35,580 nucleotides of DNA from an uncultured Marinoscillum sp. GTDB taxonomy: Bacteria; Bacteroidota; Bacteroidia; Cytophagales; MED-G16. The DNA lies in the NCBI GenBank assembly GCA_902626505.1, contig CACOFQ010000005.1:67401-102980 (forward strand), in the 5' to 3' direction. The position numbers and the translations under genes are program-made. Shown one piece after another: positions 3,346 through 10,586 of the stretch. Below the pieces are notes generated by a model, which was not told the DNA's origin, did not search any database, and saw only the letters and a list, made by a program, of their open reading frames with translations. The stretch's first letter is position 1; every line of letters starts with the position of its first letter.

Positions 3346-5160
3346 ATGATAGACATTAAAAAAATTGATCTTCCTAATTCATCAGGAGTATATAAATTTA
3401 TAAACCATAAATCAAATATAATTTATGTAGGCAAATCAAAAAGTCTTAATAAAAGGGTAAAAAGTTATTTTCAGAAACAACATAACAATAAGATATCAAA
3501 AATGGTAAGTGAAATTAAAAAAATTGAATTTGTAATTTCAGAATCGGAACATGATGCTTTACTTCTTGAAAACAATCTTATAAAGGAATATAAACCTAAG
3601 TATAATATTTTATTAAGAGACGATAAAACATATCCATGGGTCACCATAAAAAAAGAAAGATTCCCTAGAGTATTTTTAACAAGAAAATACATAAAAGACG
3701 GATCAGAGTATTTTGGGCCCTATACAAATGTAAAGGCAATTAACACTTTACTAAGTATTATAAATAATATTTATCCAATTAGAGTTAGCAATTATAACTT
3801 ATCCCAAAAAAAAATAAATGATACTAAAAATAAAATTGGACTTAGTATTCATTCTAAAAATGGACACACATTAATTCTTGGGTTTGAAAAGCTTTCTACA
3901 AAGAAACAAAGATTATTATCAGAGAAGGTATATAACAATAACATAAACTTTGTAAGGGAAATTTTAAAGGGGAATTTTAAGAATGTAAAAAAAAATTTAA
4001 AAAATCAAATGAAGGTATTCGCTACATCACTTGAATTTGAAAAATCTCAGAGCATTAAAGAAAAGCTAGATCTTTTAGATAAATATCAATCTAAATCTAT
4101 AATTGTAAGTGATAGACATAACGATCTTGATGTAATAGGAATAATTGAAGACATCAATTCATATTTTATCAATTATTTGAAAATAAATAACGGTATGATT
4201 ATTGGCTCAGAATCTTTAAAAGTTAAGAAAAAATTAAGTTTTGGAAAGAAAGAATTAAGACAAATAATTATGAGTCTAAAGTTAAGATATGATAGTTTAA
4301 ACAATAATATAATTTCTAATATTAATTTGAAAAAAATAATATCAAATGAATTTAAGACAACTGTCCCAAAAGCTGGTGAGAAAAAAAAACTATTAGATAT
4401 GAGTCTAAAAAACTTACTGTTCTTTAAGAAAAATTTATATAATGAAAAAAAAGAGAGAAAAACAAAAAGATTATCAATACTTGTTGACTTAAAGAATAAA
4501 TTAAATTTAAAAAAAATACCATTTCATATTGAGTGCTTTGATATTTCAAATATTCAAGGAAAAAATACAGTAGCATCTATGATTCTATTTAAAGATGGTT
4601 ACCCAAGTAAAAAAGAGTATAGAAAATATAAAATAAAAACTGTCGATAAACCTGATGACTTTGAATCTATGAGAGAGGTTGTTTTTAGAAGATATTCAAG
4701 AATATTAGAGGAAAAGAATCAACTTCCCGATTTAATAATTATTGATGGGGGTAAAGGTCAGTTAAGCTCAGCATGTGAGGTGTTAAGAACATTAAAAATT
4801 TATAATAAAGTTAATATTATTGGTATAGCAAAAAAGCTTGAAGAAATTTATTTCCCTAAAGATCCCTTCCCAGTACTTTTAGGAAAAAAATCTGAGCAAC
4901 TTAAATTAATACAAAACATAAGAAACGAAGCTCACAGATTTGCAATAAATTACCATAAAACCCTGAGAAGTAACACATTCATTAAATCTGAGTTAGAAGA
5001 AATTTATGGTATAGGCAATATTACCAGAATTAAATTAATGAAAGCCTTTGGATCATTAGAAAAAATAAAAAAGGCAGATAAAAATGAATTAATAAAAATA
5101 ATTGGTAATAATAAAACTGAAAAAGTATTTAACTATTTCTCTAATACTCCCAAAGATTAG
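3346..5160 (+). CDS. uvrC: UvrC excinuclease subunit, lacking the usual Fe-S cysteines
   Basis: The nuclease of nucleotide excision repair, which cuts on both sides of a lesion presented by UvrA/UvrB. The 604-residue length is normal. Domains in order: GIY-YIG nuclease (GVYKF 14-18, IYVGKSKSLNKRV 26-38, catalytic-type Glu75); a middle region; a UVR motif that contacts UvrB (about 212-248); an RNase H-like second nuclease (CFDISNIQG, then IIDGGKGQ, then RNEAHRF); and a C-terminal helix-hairpin-helix (LEEIYGIGNITRIKLMKAFG). Oddity: the four cysteines that normally hold a 4Fe-4S cluster in the middle region align without gaps to Ser148, Gly165, Gly173 and Ile177, so the cluster site is absent while both nuclease sites look intact. 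It is third in a sprE-pbp1A-uvrC run, and its last 20 bases overlap the end of the convergent gldN. Confidence 0.95.
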   Translation: MIDIKKIDLPNSSGVYKFINHKSNIIYVGKSKSLNKRVKSYFQKQHNNKISKMVSEIKKIEFVISESEHDALLLENNLIKEYKPKYNILLRDDKTYPWVTIKKERFPRVFLTRKYIKDGSEYFGPYTNVKAINTLLSIINNIYPIRVSNYNLSQKKINDTKNKIGLSIHSKNGHTLILGFEKLSTKKQRLLSEKVYNNNINFVREILKGNFKNVKKNLKNQMKVFATSLEFEKSQSIKEKLDLLDKYQSKSIIVSDRHNDLDVIGIIEDINSYFINYLKINNGMIIGSESLKVKKKLSFGKKELRQIIMSLKLRYDSLNNNIISNINLKKIISNEFKTTVPKAGEKKKLLDMSLKNLLFFKKNLYNEKKERKTKRLSILVDLKNKLNLKKIPFHIECFDISNIQGKNTVASMILFKDGYPSKKEYRKYKIKTVDKPDDFESMREVVFRRYSRILEEKNQLPDLIIIDGGKGQLSSACEVLRTLKIYNKVNIIGIAKKLEEIYFPKDPFPVLLGKKSEQLKLIQNIRNEAHRFAINYHKTLRSNTFIKSELEEIYGIGNITRIKLMKAFGSLEKIKKADKNELIKIIGNNKTEKVFNYFSNTPKD

Positions 5161-6016
5161 CTTCCCATTCCATTAGGTCTTGCTCTACTTTAAAACTAGC
5201 CATAATACCCTCTTCACGAGACCTAGCATATAATTCAGATACTCTTATGTCGTCAGCATTAGCAATTTTAACAATAATACCTTTAAATAGTCTAAGTATA
5301 AATGCATCACCTAAATTTTTATGTTGAGCAATATTATTTTCATTATACCAAATTGCATCTTTTGACATAGATTTAAATAGATTATATAGGTCAATAAATC
5401 TAAATGAGGCAATTGGTTTCTCAAATCCAGCAGGGTTATAGAAACTGTCACCAGGAAGATACATGGTTATTGATTGTATGTCAAAGTAAATTCTTGAGTG
5501 AATCCTATCAAAATATAGATCTTCTTTAATCTCAAAAATTGAAAATTCTCTTTTAGGAATAAAAATTGGTCCAGCCTCAATTTCTTCAAAATCATCAGCA
5601 AATGGATCATCTTCCTCAAATCCCGCAAATGGATCATCTAAATCAAACCCAAAATCTTCCTCTTGTTGTTCTTCTTCATCTATTTGCTGAATACTTTCTA
5701 CAAACTCTTCCCTAGACATCACATTACTATCGTTAACAGAATCACTATTATATGGAATTAAAACTCCTCTTTCAACAGCTTCAATTATAAGTTTTGATAT
5801 TTCTCTATTCCTCGCAAAAAAAGGTTTGTTTTGCTTTTCCTTCAAATCTACCCTTCTCCATAACGTTTTTTTCCACATTAAATAGGATTCATGTACCTGC
5901 CTTAAAGAGAGAGGATTATATCCATTAGACTCTGCGCTAACCTGAGAATATGAGTTATCTACAGTCAAAACAGACAATAAAACATAAAGTACAAGAATCT
6001 TATTTAGCTTTTTCAT
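5141..6016 (-). CDS. gldN: GldN/PorN, periplasmic ring component of type IX secretion
   Basis: GldN binds GldK in the large periplasmic ring of the type IX secretion and gliding machinery. The 291-residue product has a signal peptide (about residues 1-25, ending SYSQ). Family features follow: a 'ESYLMWKKTLWRRVDL' segment near the N-terminus (the family usually has 'MGKTVWEIIDLDER'), the 'IFEIKEDLYFDRIHSRIYF' region, and a C-terminus ending in 'DLMEWEANLWEY', matching the family's 'FEHDMWNY' ending. Oddity: residues about 113-148 form a strongly acidic, low-complexity insertion with two imperfect copies of a DDPFA-x-FEE unit. It is the last gene of the hemD-porP-gldKLMN run, starting three bases after gldM, and overlaps the 3' end of convergent uvrC. 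Confidence 0.93.
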   Translation of the reverse strand: MKKLNKILVLYVLLSVLTVDNSYSQVSAESNGYNPLSLRQVHESYLMWKKTLWRRVDLKEKQNKPFFARNREISKLIIEAVERGVLIPYNSDSVNDSNVMSREEFVESIQQIDEEEQQEEDFGFDLDDPFAGFEEDDPFADDFEEIEAGPIFIPKREFSIFEIKEDLYFDRIHSRIYFDIQSITMYLPGDSFYNPAGFEKPIASFRFIDLYNLFKSMSKDAIWYNENNIAQHKNLGDAFILRLFKGIIVKIANADDIRVSELYARSREEGIMASFKVEQDLMEWEANLWEY

Positions 6017-6019
6017 AAA

Positions 6020-7627
6020 TTATTTTAATGGTATTGTTATATATCTAGGCGCAAAGTTTTTAAACTCTTCAACTTCTCCTCTGAAGTTAGCTCTAGCTAC
6101 TCTTTTTATTTCAATTACAATATTATCCCCTTTTCTTTTTCCAGCGAGCTTATTTAAATTAACATCTTTACTATTAACTCTTTGTCTTGACACTCCTCTG
6201 CCAGCTCTAACAAGATTAACCTCAGCTTCTCTAACTTGGAATCTTGCGTCTTTAGGTAAAAATTCAGCAAAACTAGGATCAGCAATTGCGTCCAAGCTGA
6301 AGCTTGGTGTACTTACCGGAATACCTGATTTAGCATCAATTTCTTTACCCCTAATTCTGGCCTTGATTTCAGGTGCAGGAATTTGTCTAACACCAAAAGA
6401 CTGGGAACCTATAAAATTACCCGCATTACTTACATTCAAATCAACCTTTTTCGACTTTGGAATGATTGTTACCTGTCCAGCTTTAGAGCCTCTTACAACA
6501 TCCCCCCCTCTTGCAGAGAAAGTAGGATTATACTCTGATCCTAATGCAGGAACATTAACTGTAATTTCGTTACCACAATTAAGATACAATGCTTGAACAG
6601 ACGCAGACTGAATTTGAATTACTGGTCTAGCAACAAAATATTCTACAGTGTCAACAAAAGTAGTATCTCTTCCACCAGGAAGGGTTACACTAATGGTTCC
6701 AATATAACTCTGTTTTGATAAACCTTCTCTATCATACTGACCTCCTTTTGCTGTAAACTCGTAGTATCCTCTCCCATTGGTAACATCTAGAGTATCACCG
6801 TCAGCAGTCATTGTAGGAACAATAGCTGAGGATGCGGCTGATAAGAATAACTGTGTTCTGTATTTAGCTCCAGCAGCAACCACTTTTTGTTCAGGTAATG
6901 TTGTAAGAGTTACTACGTCAAACTTTAAATCTGCAGCACCAACAGAAGCAGCAAGTTTATCTAAAGCCTTAATTTCTAAATTTATTATATCAGATTGAAG
7001 TTGACTTATTGTCGCAAGACCTGCCCCTGCAGAAGTACCATAACCAAAATTCAATGATTTGAATGAAGGATCAGTTGGCGGAGCATCGTCGTATAATGGA
7101 ATTTGATCCGCATTACGTGCAAGATCTACGACTCCTGAATTTTCATCACCTAAGAAAATTGAGTCTTGAATAAAATCTGAAAATTCATTAAGTAAAACTT
7201 GTATTTCGTCTCCATTAAGTTTTCCATCGTCATCAATATCAACATTCATATATCTATATACATAGTCAGTATTCTTATAACCTTTAATTCCTCCCTTTCC
7301 ATCACTACCCCCAGTTTCTTCAACTATTATAGTTTTAATTTCCCCAAGGAAATTAACAAGAGTATTTGACCTATTTCTTACTTCTTCTGATAAATTTAAA
7401 ACACCAATATCTTCTTTTCTATTACCAGAATCTTCAACAGCCGCCTTAATTGACTCTATTTTCCTATTATTATCAGCAACCTTCTCAGAATTAGTGGCTT
7501 CAAAGCTCTGATTAATAAGAAGAAACTTTTTCAATACTTTAGTGTCTACGTTTAAGGCTAACATAGCAATTAACACTAAATACATTAGGTTAATCATTTT
7601 CTGTCTAGGGTTACTTCCAGCAGCCAT
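6020..7627 (-). CDS. gldM: GldM/PorM, type IX secretion motor subunit
   Basis: GldM and GldL form the proton-driven inner-membrane motor that powers type IX secretion and gliding; GldM's periplasmic domains reach up to the GldK/GldN ring. The 535-residue protein starts with the family hallmark: NPRQKMINLMYLVLIAMLALNV, a single N-terminal membrane helix preceded by the conserved Arg (Arg8 here). Four periplasmic domains are expected after it; the C-terminal part ends 'NFAPRYITIPLK'. Oddity: residues 130-141 (DIDDDGKLNGDE) match a canonical EF-hand calcium-binding loop inside the first, helical periplasmic domain, flanked by helix-like segments. The gene lies 36 bases after gldL and three before gldN. 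Its local G+C looks higher than the window average, as expected for a well-expressed core gene. Confidence 0.96.
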   Translation of the reverse strand: MAAGSNPRQKMINLMYLVLIAMLALNVDTKVLKKFLLINQSFEATNSEKVADNNRKIESIKAAVEDSGNRKEDIGVLNLSEEVRNRSNTLVNFLGEIKTIIVEETGGSDGKGGIKGYKNTDYVYRYMNVDIDDDGKLNGDEIQVLLNEFSDFIQDSIFLGDENSGVVDLARNADQIPLYDDAPPTDPSFKSLNFGYGTSAGAGLATISQLQSDIINLEIKALDKLAASVGAADLKFDVVTLTTLPEQKVVAAGAKYRTQLFLSAASSAIVPTMTADGDTLDVTNGRGYYEFTAKGGQYDREGLSKQSYIGTISVTLPGGRDTTFVDTVEYFVARPVIQIQSASVQALYLNCGNEITVNVPALGSEYNPTFSARGGDVVRGSKAGQVTIIPKSKKVDLNVSNAGNFIGSQSFGVRQIPAPEIKARIRGKEIDAKSGIPVSTPSFSLDAIADPSFAEFLPKDARFQVREAEVNLVRAGRGVSRQRVNSKDVNLNKLAGKRKGDNIVIEIKRVARANFRGEVEEFKNFAPRYITIPLK

Positions 7628-7663: not shown

Positions 7664-8413
7664 TTATTTATGCATAGCATCATACATGCCTACATAAATT
7701 TTATTTAGTTTACTTAAATTCTCAGTTAAATCCTGTAATTCTTTCTGTAATCTTACAGCATCGTTTTGAGCATTTGTCATACTTTTAGCAGTTTCAGTAA
7801 TTTGTCCTGAAGCATCAACTATTGCGCCTAGAGAATTTGAAGCATTCTTTAAATTTTCTTTATACTCCTGAGTCAAGTTAACAGCCTCCTTAACACTTGA
7901 AGAAGAAGCAGCAAGATCTTGAGCAGTTGAAGATATAGCGCTATAAGACTCATTTACTGTCTTTAAAGATTCAGTTGCGCTTTTCATACTGTCTGAATAT
8001 TCTTTAGCAGCAACAGATGAACCTGCCAATTCGTTTATATTACTTGCTTGAGTAGCCATTTTTTTCATCCCATCTCCAACGCTTTTTAAAACAGCACTAT
8101 CTAATTGCGCCTCTTTCATCATATCTTTAAATTGAGTTGCATTTGACCCTTTACCCTCAGGCATTAATTGAGGATAAACTTTACTCCAATCCCACTCATG
8201 CGCAGTTGGCGGATCAAAAGCACTAATAGCAAAAATTATAGCTTCAGCTCCTAAACCAGCTATTAACATAGCGTTAGCAAATGGCCAACCCTGTAATTTG
8301 AATAAGGCACCTAAAATCACAATGGCAGCCCCTAGGCCATACATCATGTTCATATTATCCTCATTCTGTATAAATCTTAAGAATATGTTATTCGATCTTT
8401 TTTTAGTAATCAT
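7664..8413 (-). CDS. gldL: GldL/PorL, type IX secretion motor subunit
   Basis: GldL is the pentameric inner-membrane partner of GldM in the proton-driven motor. The 249-residue protein has two membrane helices close together (about residues 24-40 and 47-66) with the family signature GAAIVILGALFKLQGWP and AMLIAGLGAEAIIFAISAFDPP. Glu57 in the second helix sits where the family's key protonatable glutamate is found. The rest is a long cytoplasmic region rich in Ser/Ala/Gln heptads (about 90-240), likely coiled coil. The N-terminus carries about 20 extra residues before the usual family start; a later ATG (Met21) is possible. It lies 42 bases after gldK and 36 before gldM. Confidence 0.95.
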   Translation of the reverse strand: MITKKRSNNIFLRFIQNEDNMNMMYGLGAAIVILGALFKLQGWPFANAMLIAGLGAEAIIFAISAFDPPTAHEWDWSKVYPQLMPEGKGSNATQFKDMMKEAQLDSAVLKSVGDGMKKMATQASNINELAGSSVAAKEYSDSMKSATESLKTVNESYSAISSTAQDLAASSSSVKEAVNLTQEYKENLKNASNSLGAIVDASGQITETAKSMTNAQNDAVRLQKELQDLTENLSKLNKIYVGMYDAMHK

Positions 8414-8455: not shown

Positions 8456-9493
8456 TTAAAAGCCTTCTAAATTTCTACCTAAATGAGGCATAGCGGTTCT
8501 AAATCCTATAAAAGCTCTAGTAGAGTCTTTATATTCAAAAGTCCTCGTTGCCACTTCAATAAAGAAAGCAATATCTTTCCAAGATCCTCCTCTAATAACT
8601 TTTTTGTCATTAGTGTCATCTCTATATATAGGGTTTAAGTCCCATACTACTGGATTATAAGAATCAATGTATGCATCTTCACACCACTCTGCGACATTAC
8701 CTGACATATCATATAAACCAAAATCGTTCGGGAAGAAAACACCAACCGGAGATGTGTAAGCGTAGCCATCATCAACATAGTTTCCCCTTCCAGGTTTAAA
8801 ATTAGCTAATACACAACCTCTAGAATTTCTTGTGTATGGGTTACCCCAAGGATATTTAACATTATCCCTTCCCCCTCTTGCTGCATATTCCCATTCTGCC
8901 TCTGTTGGTAATCTGAAAGATGGGAAAGGTAAAAGTCCTTGTTCTCTTCTATAGCTATTTAAAAAACTTGTTCTCCATTTAGTAAACTCGCGAGCAGACT
9001 CCCAAGATACTCCAACCACTGGATAATCATCAAAAGCAGGATGTGACCAATAATAAGCTAATAAAGGGTCTCCATAATGATTAGTAAAATCACTTGACCA
9101 TACCGTAGTATCTGGTTTTAAAGATTCAATAGTTACGCCATCTGAAAGATCATAATCAGGGTTTTCTTCAATATACTGAATAAATTGTCTGTATTCATCG
9201 TTTGTAATTTCTGTATCATCCATATAAAATGCACTGATGGTTACCTGCCTGTTAAAATTACTTTGATCGGCTTGAATATTTTCATCAGCTTGACCCATAT
9301 AAAATCTCCCTGTTGGTATATATACCATACCATATTGAGCAGACATTTCAAAACCATCTCTATCTAAAGTACCAACCAATTGACCTCTAGGATTTTTTTT
9401 GCTAGAACCTCCACCAAGCAGACTACACCCCCCTATGGCAATTGCCAAAATACAATAGAATATTAATGAAATATTTTTATTAGTCTTCAACAT
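8456..9493 (-). CDS. gldK: GldK/PorK, outer-membrane lipoprotein of the type IX secretion ring
   Basis: GldK is a lipoprotein with a formylglycine-generating-enzyme-like (FGE-sulfatase) fold that forms a periplasmic ring with GldN beneath the outer membrane. The fold signatures are present: 'GMVYIPTGRFYMG' near the start, 'YPVVGVSWESAREFTKWR', 'FRLPTEAEWEYAARGG', 'GLYDMSGNVAEWCEDAY' and 'IRGGSWKD'. The signal peptide ends in a lipobox (IAIGGC), with Ser/Gly/Lys rather than acidic residues after the Cys, consistent with periplasm-facing attachment. I chose the ATG at 9493 (345 residues) over an in-frame TTG four codons upstream. A 142-base gap separates it from porP upstream and holds a candidate promoter, so gldKLMN may be transcribed separately. 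Confidence 0.95.
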   Translation of the reverse strand: MLKTNKNISLIFYCILAIAIGGCSLLGGGSSKKNPRGQLVGTLDRDGFEMSAQYGMVYIPTGRFYMGQADENIQADQSNFNRQVTISAFYMDDTEITNDEYRQFIQYIEENPDYDLSDGVTIESLKPDTTVWSSDFTNHYGDPLLAYYWSHPAFDDYPVVGVSWESAREFTKWRTSFLNSYRREQGLLPFPSFRLPTEAEWEYAARGGRDNVKYPWGNPYTRNSRGCVLANFKPGRGNYVDDGYAYTSPVGVFFPNDFGLYDMSGNVAEWCEDAYIDSYNPVVWDLNPIYRDDTNDKKVIRGGSWKDIAFFIEVATRTFEYKDSTRAFIGFRTAMPHLGRNLEGF

Positions 9494-9574
9494 AATTAAA
9501 CGCAAAGTTAAAACTTAACTTTAAAAAATCTAAATTATTGTTTTGAACGATAAATATTTAGCTAGAAAGTTACA

Positions 9575-9635: not shown

Positions 9636-10586
9636 TTAGTAAAAAAATCTCGGTGTTCTAATAGGTTTTTTTAATTGTGGTGTTGGTAAATCATATTTTA
9701 CAATTAATTCATGAGAAATTGGAGCCTTAGCATTAACATTATGAACCACGTAGTCAAAAGCATATCCAATAAACAACTTATTTTTTTTCAGGAAATGATA
9801 ACCTAAAAAGCCAACAATTGCTTCATCATACCTATAGGAAGCACCTATGCTCATATTTTCTTTGTATGTAGCTAAAGCACTTAAATCAAAAGTAAAAGAC
9901 TTTAAGTCAGATCTAAATAGTAAATAGGGTTCAACGTTAAGATCTCTATCAATTTCAATTAAATATTTACCAAAAAAAGAAAAATTTACATTGTCGGTGT
10001 TCTGTAGATCACTTACTCCAAAATTAAACGAGGGTTGAGCTAAGTTTTTTGCAGAAAGACTTAATAAAATTTTATCATTATAATATGAAATCCCAACTCC
10101 TAAATCCGGCTTAGATTGAGTTTCTCTTCCACCAACATTAAATGGGTCTGAGGGATTCACAAATATTAATGAACTAAAATTTAATGTAGTACTTTTAAAT
10201 GAAGGCGAAACCCCTAAGCTTAAGTAGGATTCATTAATTTTTTTTGCAATACTAAGGTATGGTGATAAATTAAATACTTCTTTTGGACCAAGATTATCAG
10301 TTATTATATTCATACCAAATGAAACTGATTTATCTCTATTTTTTAGGTTTAAAGATAAAATTCCTGTACTAGGTGATTCAGAAGATAGAGATAAATTAGT
10401 AGGACTATAATTAGCCCACTGATTCCTATAAACTAAAACCACATTATTATTATCATAAGTTGAAGACAAGCTAGAATTTATAATAGATGGATTAACCAAA
10501 TAAGTACTAAAATAAGGATCTTGTTGGGCTATTAAGCTATAATTGAATATTAAAAGTGAAAAAAATAAAAAAATATACTTCCTCAT
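9636..10586 (-). CDS. porP: PorP/SprF family type IX secretion outer-membrane protein
   Basis: A predicted outer-membrane beta-barrel of the PorP/SprF family, involved in type IX secretion and surface presentation of adhesins in gliding bacteria. The 316-residue protein has a signal peptide ending IAQ (about residue 20), then the hallmark mature N-terminus 'QQDPYFSTYLVNPSIINSS' and 'VLVYRNQWANY', then alternating hydrophobic strands and 'GVGISYYNDKILLSLSAKNL'. It starts three bases after the hemD stop and precedes gldK in the same direction. That reproduces the porP-porK-porL-porM-porN order known from Porphyromonas, whereas sprF in model gliding flavobacteria sits next to sprB/sprC/sprD. PorP and SprF are paralogues and sequence alone does not settle which one this is. 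Confidence 0.88.
   Translation of the reverse strand: MRKYIFLFFSLLIFNYSLIAQQDPYFSTYLVNPSIINSSLSSTYDNNNVVLVYRNQWANYSPTNLSLSSESPSTGILSLNLKNRDKSVSFGMNIITDNLGPKEVFNLSPYLSIAKKINESYLSLGVSPSFKSTTLNFSSLIFVNPSDPFNVGGRETQSKPDLGVGISYYNDKILLSLSAKNLAQPSFNFGVSDLQNTDNVNFSFFGKYLIEIDRDLNVEPYLLFRSDLKSFTFDLSALATYKENMSIGASYRYDEAIVGFLGYHFLKKNKLFIGYAFDYVVHNVNAKAPISHELIVKYDLPTPQLKKPIRTPRFFY

Follow-up and report, generated by a model that had tools for sequence, protein, structure and literature searches.

A putative calcium-binding, EF-hand-like loop in the first periplasmic domain of GldM, gained within one genus

The 35,580-nucleotide stretch of DNA analyzed here (the window) carries gldK, gldL, gldM, and gldN next to one another, in gldKLMN order, on the minus strand. 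The minus-strand product of 6020–7627 is the GldM/PorM motor protein, the shaft of the type IX secretion and gliding motor: its 535 residues score 336 bits against TIGR03517 (cut-off 180) and contain all four Pfam GldM periplasmic domains (PF12081, PF21601, PF21602, and PF12080). Its neighbors are gldL (7664–8413; TIGR03513, PF22827), which encodes the motor ring partner of GldM, gldK (8456–9505; TIGR03525), which encodes the ring lipoprotein, and gldN (5141–6016; TIGR03523, PF19841), which encodes a ring subunit. The middle linker of GldN, approximately residues 101–155, is very acidic and contains repeated DDPFA units (DLDDPFAGFEEDDPFADDFEE). Across the genus this linker holds 21 to 25 Asp/Glu per roughly 64 residues, and many other GldNs of the order have linkers that differ from it yet are acidic or glycine-rich. 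In Cytophaga hutchinsonii, GldN is reported to be needed for acquisition of Ca2+ and Mg2+ (PMC7906972).

Residues 130–141 of GldM (7205–7240, minus strand) read DIDDDGKLNGDE and, with the following Ile142, satisfy 13 of the 13 positions of PROSITE PS00018. The canonical 12-residue EF-hand loop that a preliminary description had placed at these residues is therefore exact, with every position of the pattern fitting. It is the sole PS00018 match in the six frames of the whole window. With ligand roles taken from the EF-hand consensus, the putative ligands are D130, D132, D134, the main chain of K136, N138 through a water molecule, and E141. In shuffled versions of the 27 main window proteins, PS00018 arose by chance 0.063 times per window and 0.003 times per GldM, while a stricter pattern, D.[DN].[DN]G.[LIVM]...[DE], arose 0.021 times per window and 0.0015 times per shuffled GldM. 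Among 198 shuffled GldMs, 0.43 on average carried PS00018, so the presence of one match family-wide is not strong evidence alone.

A DNA pattern search of the whole genome for DxDxDG codons returned 174 forward and 15 reverse matches (3 and 1 for the control), which makes the motif common in this genome outside GldM. Many of the matches listed lie, regularly spaced, on contig C11 between about positions 10000 and 27000 and beyond, outside the window; such an array suggests a giant calcium-binding repeat protein, or several of them.

We modeled domain 1 of GldM with AlphaFold2 (45 sequences, mean pLDDT 82.5) and assigned helices by DSSP. The model contains helices at residues 7–66, 71–104, 122–129, 138–157, and 200–229, plus shorter ones. 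The loop is predicted to be entered from a short helix, residues 122–129 (YVYRYMNV; 7241–7264, minus strand), which stops before loop position 1, and to be left by a longer helix, residues 138–157 (7157–7216, minus strand), which begins at loop position 9, giving a predicted helix–loop–helix in EF-hand register. Over the two helices and the loop the pLDDT is 74–92 by block; the loop block itself (131–140) has a mean of 74, a middling confidence, and DSSP assigns bridge residues at 131 and 137. The prediction agrees with the preliminary description both in the helices that flank the loop and in its placement within the first periplasmic domain. With Foldseek, the domain 1 model had significant matches to GldM/PorM structures only, with TM-scores of up to 0.70 by query length, and a 46-residue helix–loop–helix fragment, itself poorly modeled (pLDDT 66), had 0 matches. 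GldM domain 1 is known to have an up-and-down bundle topology (PMC5790014), and from this fold and the helix topology of the model we infer that the loop would sit in the membrane-near part of the domain.

The window loop is like the EF-hand domain (PF00036, PS00018) in fitting all positions and, in the model, in its helix register; it is unlike that domain in being single, without a partner, and in its profile score, which is below the cut-off. EF-hand profiles did not go in favor of a domain: the Pfam profiles gave no match on whole GldM, and on the loop fragment they reached only E 0.058 and 13.4 bits against a gathering score of 25.4. No second PS00018 loop, and so no partner EF-hand, was found within GldM. 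Because the profiles stay below threshold on whole protein and fragments and GldM offers no partner loop, this loop falls outside the EF-hand domain family. Its flanks exclude membership as well, since they align with the GldM helices of homologues that lack the loop and hence do not share common descent with EF-hands. A phmmer search of PDB sequences with a 44-residue fragment returned almost exclusively EF-hand or dockerin proteins (best E 0.0008), a value that sums weak repeats, the best single-repeat i-Evalues among the alignments shown being about 4–9 and each insignificant. EF-hand proteins were returned for the degenerate fragment of congener L003 too, and the fragment of L007 (DEDGDQ form) gave only two weak matches, calbindin among them.

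To place the loop in the family we used 200 GldM/PorM proteins (198 unique) drawn from relatives, the phylum, and a genome-collection scan. Among the 198 unique proteins the full PS00018 loop is confined to the genus of the window, where it occurs in L001, L002, and L131; L006, of the same genus, has the full motif apart from one masked base at position 5. The L131 loop, DFDDDGIINGDE, departs from that of the window at positions 2, 7, and 8 only, where the pattern tolerates variation. Six congeners carry degenerate loops (DEDKNGLSNGDE, DEDQNGLSNGQE, DEDGNGLRFGDE, DENKDNLTNGDD, and, twice, DEDGDQLTNGDD) with the patterns DEDxNG..E and DExxD[NQ]..D, which keep Asp, Asn, or Glu at ligand positions 1, 3, 5, and 12 and are non-canonical at position 6 or 8. 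In congeners L010 and L011 the loop is shortened and broken by a two-residue deletion. The family genomes are mostly incomplete drafts; the loop nevertheless agrees between separate genomes.

Codon and protein alignments of 15 family genomes resolve a six-residue insertion, DIDDDG, at 7223–7240 (minus strand), its exact register being uncertain by about a residue. Two sister genera (L013–L015) read FMVK------LGNGDSLQ, without the six residues. At the same site many GldMs of the order read MVGAEGSKNGKAYELK or similar, those of the F. johnsoniae type read FTGDGYTKKGNEII, and the linker differs in length and sequence across all GldMs of the set. Missing from the sampled GldMs outside one genus, the loop is not a general GldM feature. 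In a GldM tree built without the loop columns, the four full-motif species cluster with a bootstrap of 89 and the whole genus with 100. The broken loops of L010 and L011 are nested within the genus, sister to L008/L009 (bootstrap 83), and thus look like losses. A different acidic loop recurs near residue 110, just before a short helix, in Bacteroidales-type GldM/PorM proteins (L058, L077, L084, L087, L088, L110, and L113). Its sequence resembles D[GA]DxxN and is followed by a pair of Asp residues, for example DGDVNNIRSRDD; in 7cmg, from P. gingivalis, the third position appears to be Lys.

Ten congeners have a full-length loop, and in them every readable residue at loop positions 1, 3, 5, and 12 is D, N, or E (39/39). 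By parsimony the codons of these ligand positions underwent 12 nucleotide changes, with 5 amino-acid changes, all within Asp/Asn/Glu. The positions that change freely, between very dissimilar residues, are 2 (I/F/E), 4 (D/K/Q/G), 6 (G/N/Q), 7 (K/I/L), and 8 (L/I/S/R/T). The four full-motif species have kept the motif despite synonymous drift at its Asp, Gly, and Glu codons. The conservation of NGD (positions 9–11) is uninformative because these residues are already present in the sister genera. This pattern is suggestive of selection on the four ligand positions, in a small sample that does not amount to proof. Conservation of the acidic positions among homologues, which the preliminary description had made a test of its reading, is thus found in the congeners with a full-length loop and ends with the genus, outside which the loop is absent from the GldMs sampled.

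In PMC3123361, Dx[DN]xDG calcium loops are described for no fewer than 16 unrelated proteins, in varied flanking secondary structure and with many cases of a functional loop versus a short, motif-less loop in a homologue; its authors sought a series of loop emergence and could not draw one clearly. In GldM, DIDDDG and the later acidic residue E141 lie between two predicted helices, the close homologues in sister genera L013–L015 are six residues shorter and motif-less, and only a small part of the family has the loop, all of which resembles the loops covered there. GldM differs in that its calcium binding is putative and its helix–loop–helix context is that of EF-hands, and it is not among the cases in the accessible part of that source. 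The GldM loop has the look of a young Dx[DN]xDG calcium loop that arose by convergence, in a protein context new for such loops. The GldM/PorM proteins of F. johnsoniae, P. gingivalis, Capnocytophaga, Schleiferia, and Sphingobacterium (solved entries 6ys8, 6ey4, 7cmg, 7saz, 7sau, 7sax, and 7sat) are like the window protein over their whole length and in the domain 1 fold, whereas the PDB sequences aligned (7cmg, 7saz, 7sau, and 6ys8) lack the acidic insertion; these entries have no equivalent of the loop, as the preliminary description had supposed. The F. johnsoniae GldM crystal is listed without an ion, and we found no report in the literature of calcium in GldM or its structures.

We propose that, in the ancestor of the genus, the linker between two domain 1 helices gained about six acidic, glycine-rich residues, and that this linker then drifted and in one clade attained the full Dx[DN]xDGx[ILV]xxxE loop. 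One Ca2+ would be held there by D130, D132, D134, the main chain of K136, a water molecule held by N138, and bidentate E141; it would pin the short helix 122–129 to the long helix 138–157 and so stiffen the shaft domain at its base. Because the periplasm follows the Ca2+ concentration outside, the ion would be near-permanently bound. The role of the putative Ca2+ is probably structural: the GldMs sampled beyond the genus do without the loop and in two congeners it is broken, so motor function does not need it. That the full-motif loop binds Ca2+ is plausible, and we lean modestly toward it; that the insertion became a loop that both binds Ca2+ and stiffens the domain by pinning its helices is closer to an even call, which we narrowly favor. 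Counting against a Ca2+ site are the frequently weak binding of single, unpaired EF-loops, the subthreshold EF-hand profiles, the middling confidence of the modeled loop, the two congeners with a broken loop, and the six with a non-canonical position 6 or 8. Counting for it are a sole PS00018 match of a kind rarely produced by shuffling, the EF-hand helix register, the D/N/E ligand positions, the phmmer matches to EF-hand and dockerin proteins, and the precedent in PMC3123361.

The insertion could instead be an ordinary expansion of an acidic, solvent-exposed linker, whose likeness to an EF-hand would reflect chance and acidic bias and which would have no useful metal affinity. Such an expansion would fit a site where neither length nor sequence is constant from one GldM to another, a domain 1 that is Asp-rich (20 D and 14 E per 202 residues), the expectation of 0.43 PS00018 matches among 198 shuffled GldMs, the loss of the motif in two congeners, and the missing glycine or hydrophobic position 8 in the degenerate forms. 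It fits less well with D/N/E being held at exactly four ligand positions while their neighbors vary, with predicted helix ends in EF-hand register, and with a motif maintained in four species through synonymous codon drift; we regard it as a possibility to be taken seriously, if a somewhat doubtful one. Acquisition of a genuine EF-hand domain by recombination with an EF-hand protein would supply a canonical loop flanked by helices, but the alignment leaves it close to refuted and we give it almost no credence: the insertion amounts to only about six residues, the flanking helices align with those of GldMs without the loop, congeners carry partial forms, and no EF-hand domain in the window's genome reaches significance.

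A bound Ca2+ might also regulate the motor, altering how stiff the shaft is or how it couples to the GldL ring, so that outside calcium gates gliding or secretion. We consider this improbable, and calcium gating of the GldM motor finds no support here; the appeal to seawater calcium in the preliminary description assumes a marine habitat. Most bacteria are not known to control periplasmic Ca2+ as a signal, and no GldM sampled beyond the genus has the loop, which is broken in two congeners. What speaks for regulation is the membrane-near position deduced for the loop in domain 1, together with the shift in conformation that the GldM periplasmic domain undergoes with the proton gradient (PMC8986121).

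The structural Ca2+ loop that we favor would leave the general understanding of the motor unchanged, because all GldMs sampled outside the genus are without the loop. We know of no metal site in the GldLM/PorLM motor, and if Ca2+ is bound here, this would be the first known to us. It is a long shot that, in this one young lineage, the shaft of a rotary motor acquired a genuine Ca2+ site at the foot of its periplasmic domain and that torque transmission or motor assembly thereby depends on outside calcium; were that the case, the steps by which such a site emerges would be visible across a dozen species. If the loop does bind Ca2+, the genus and its relatives would provide a rooted series of site emergence, with no site in the sister genera, a partial one in most congeners, and a complete one in a single clade.
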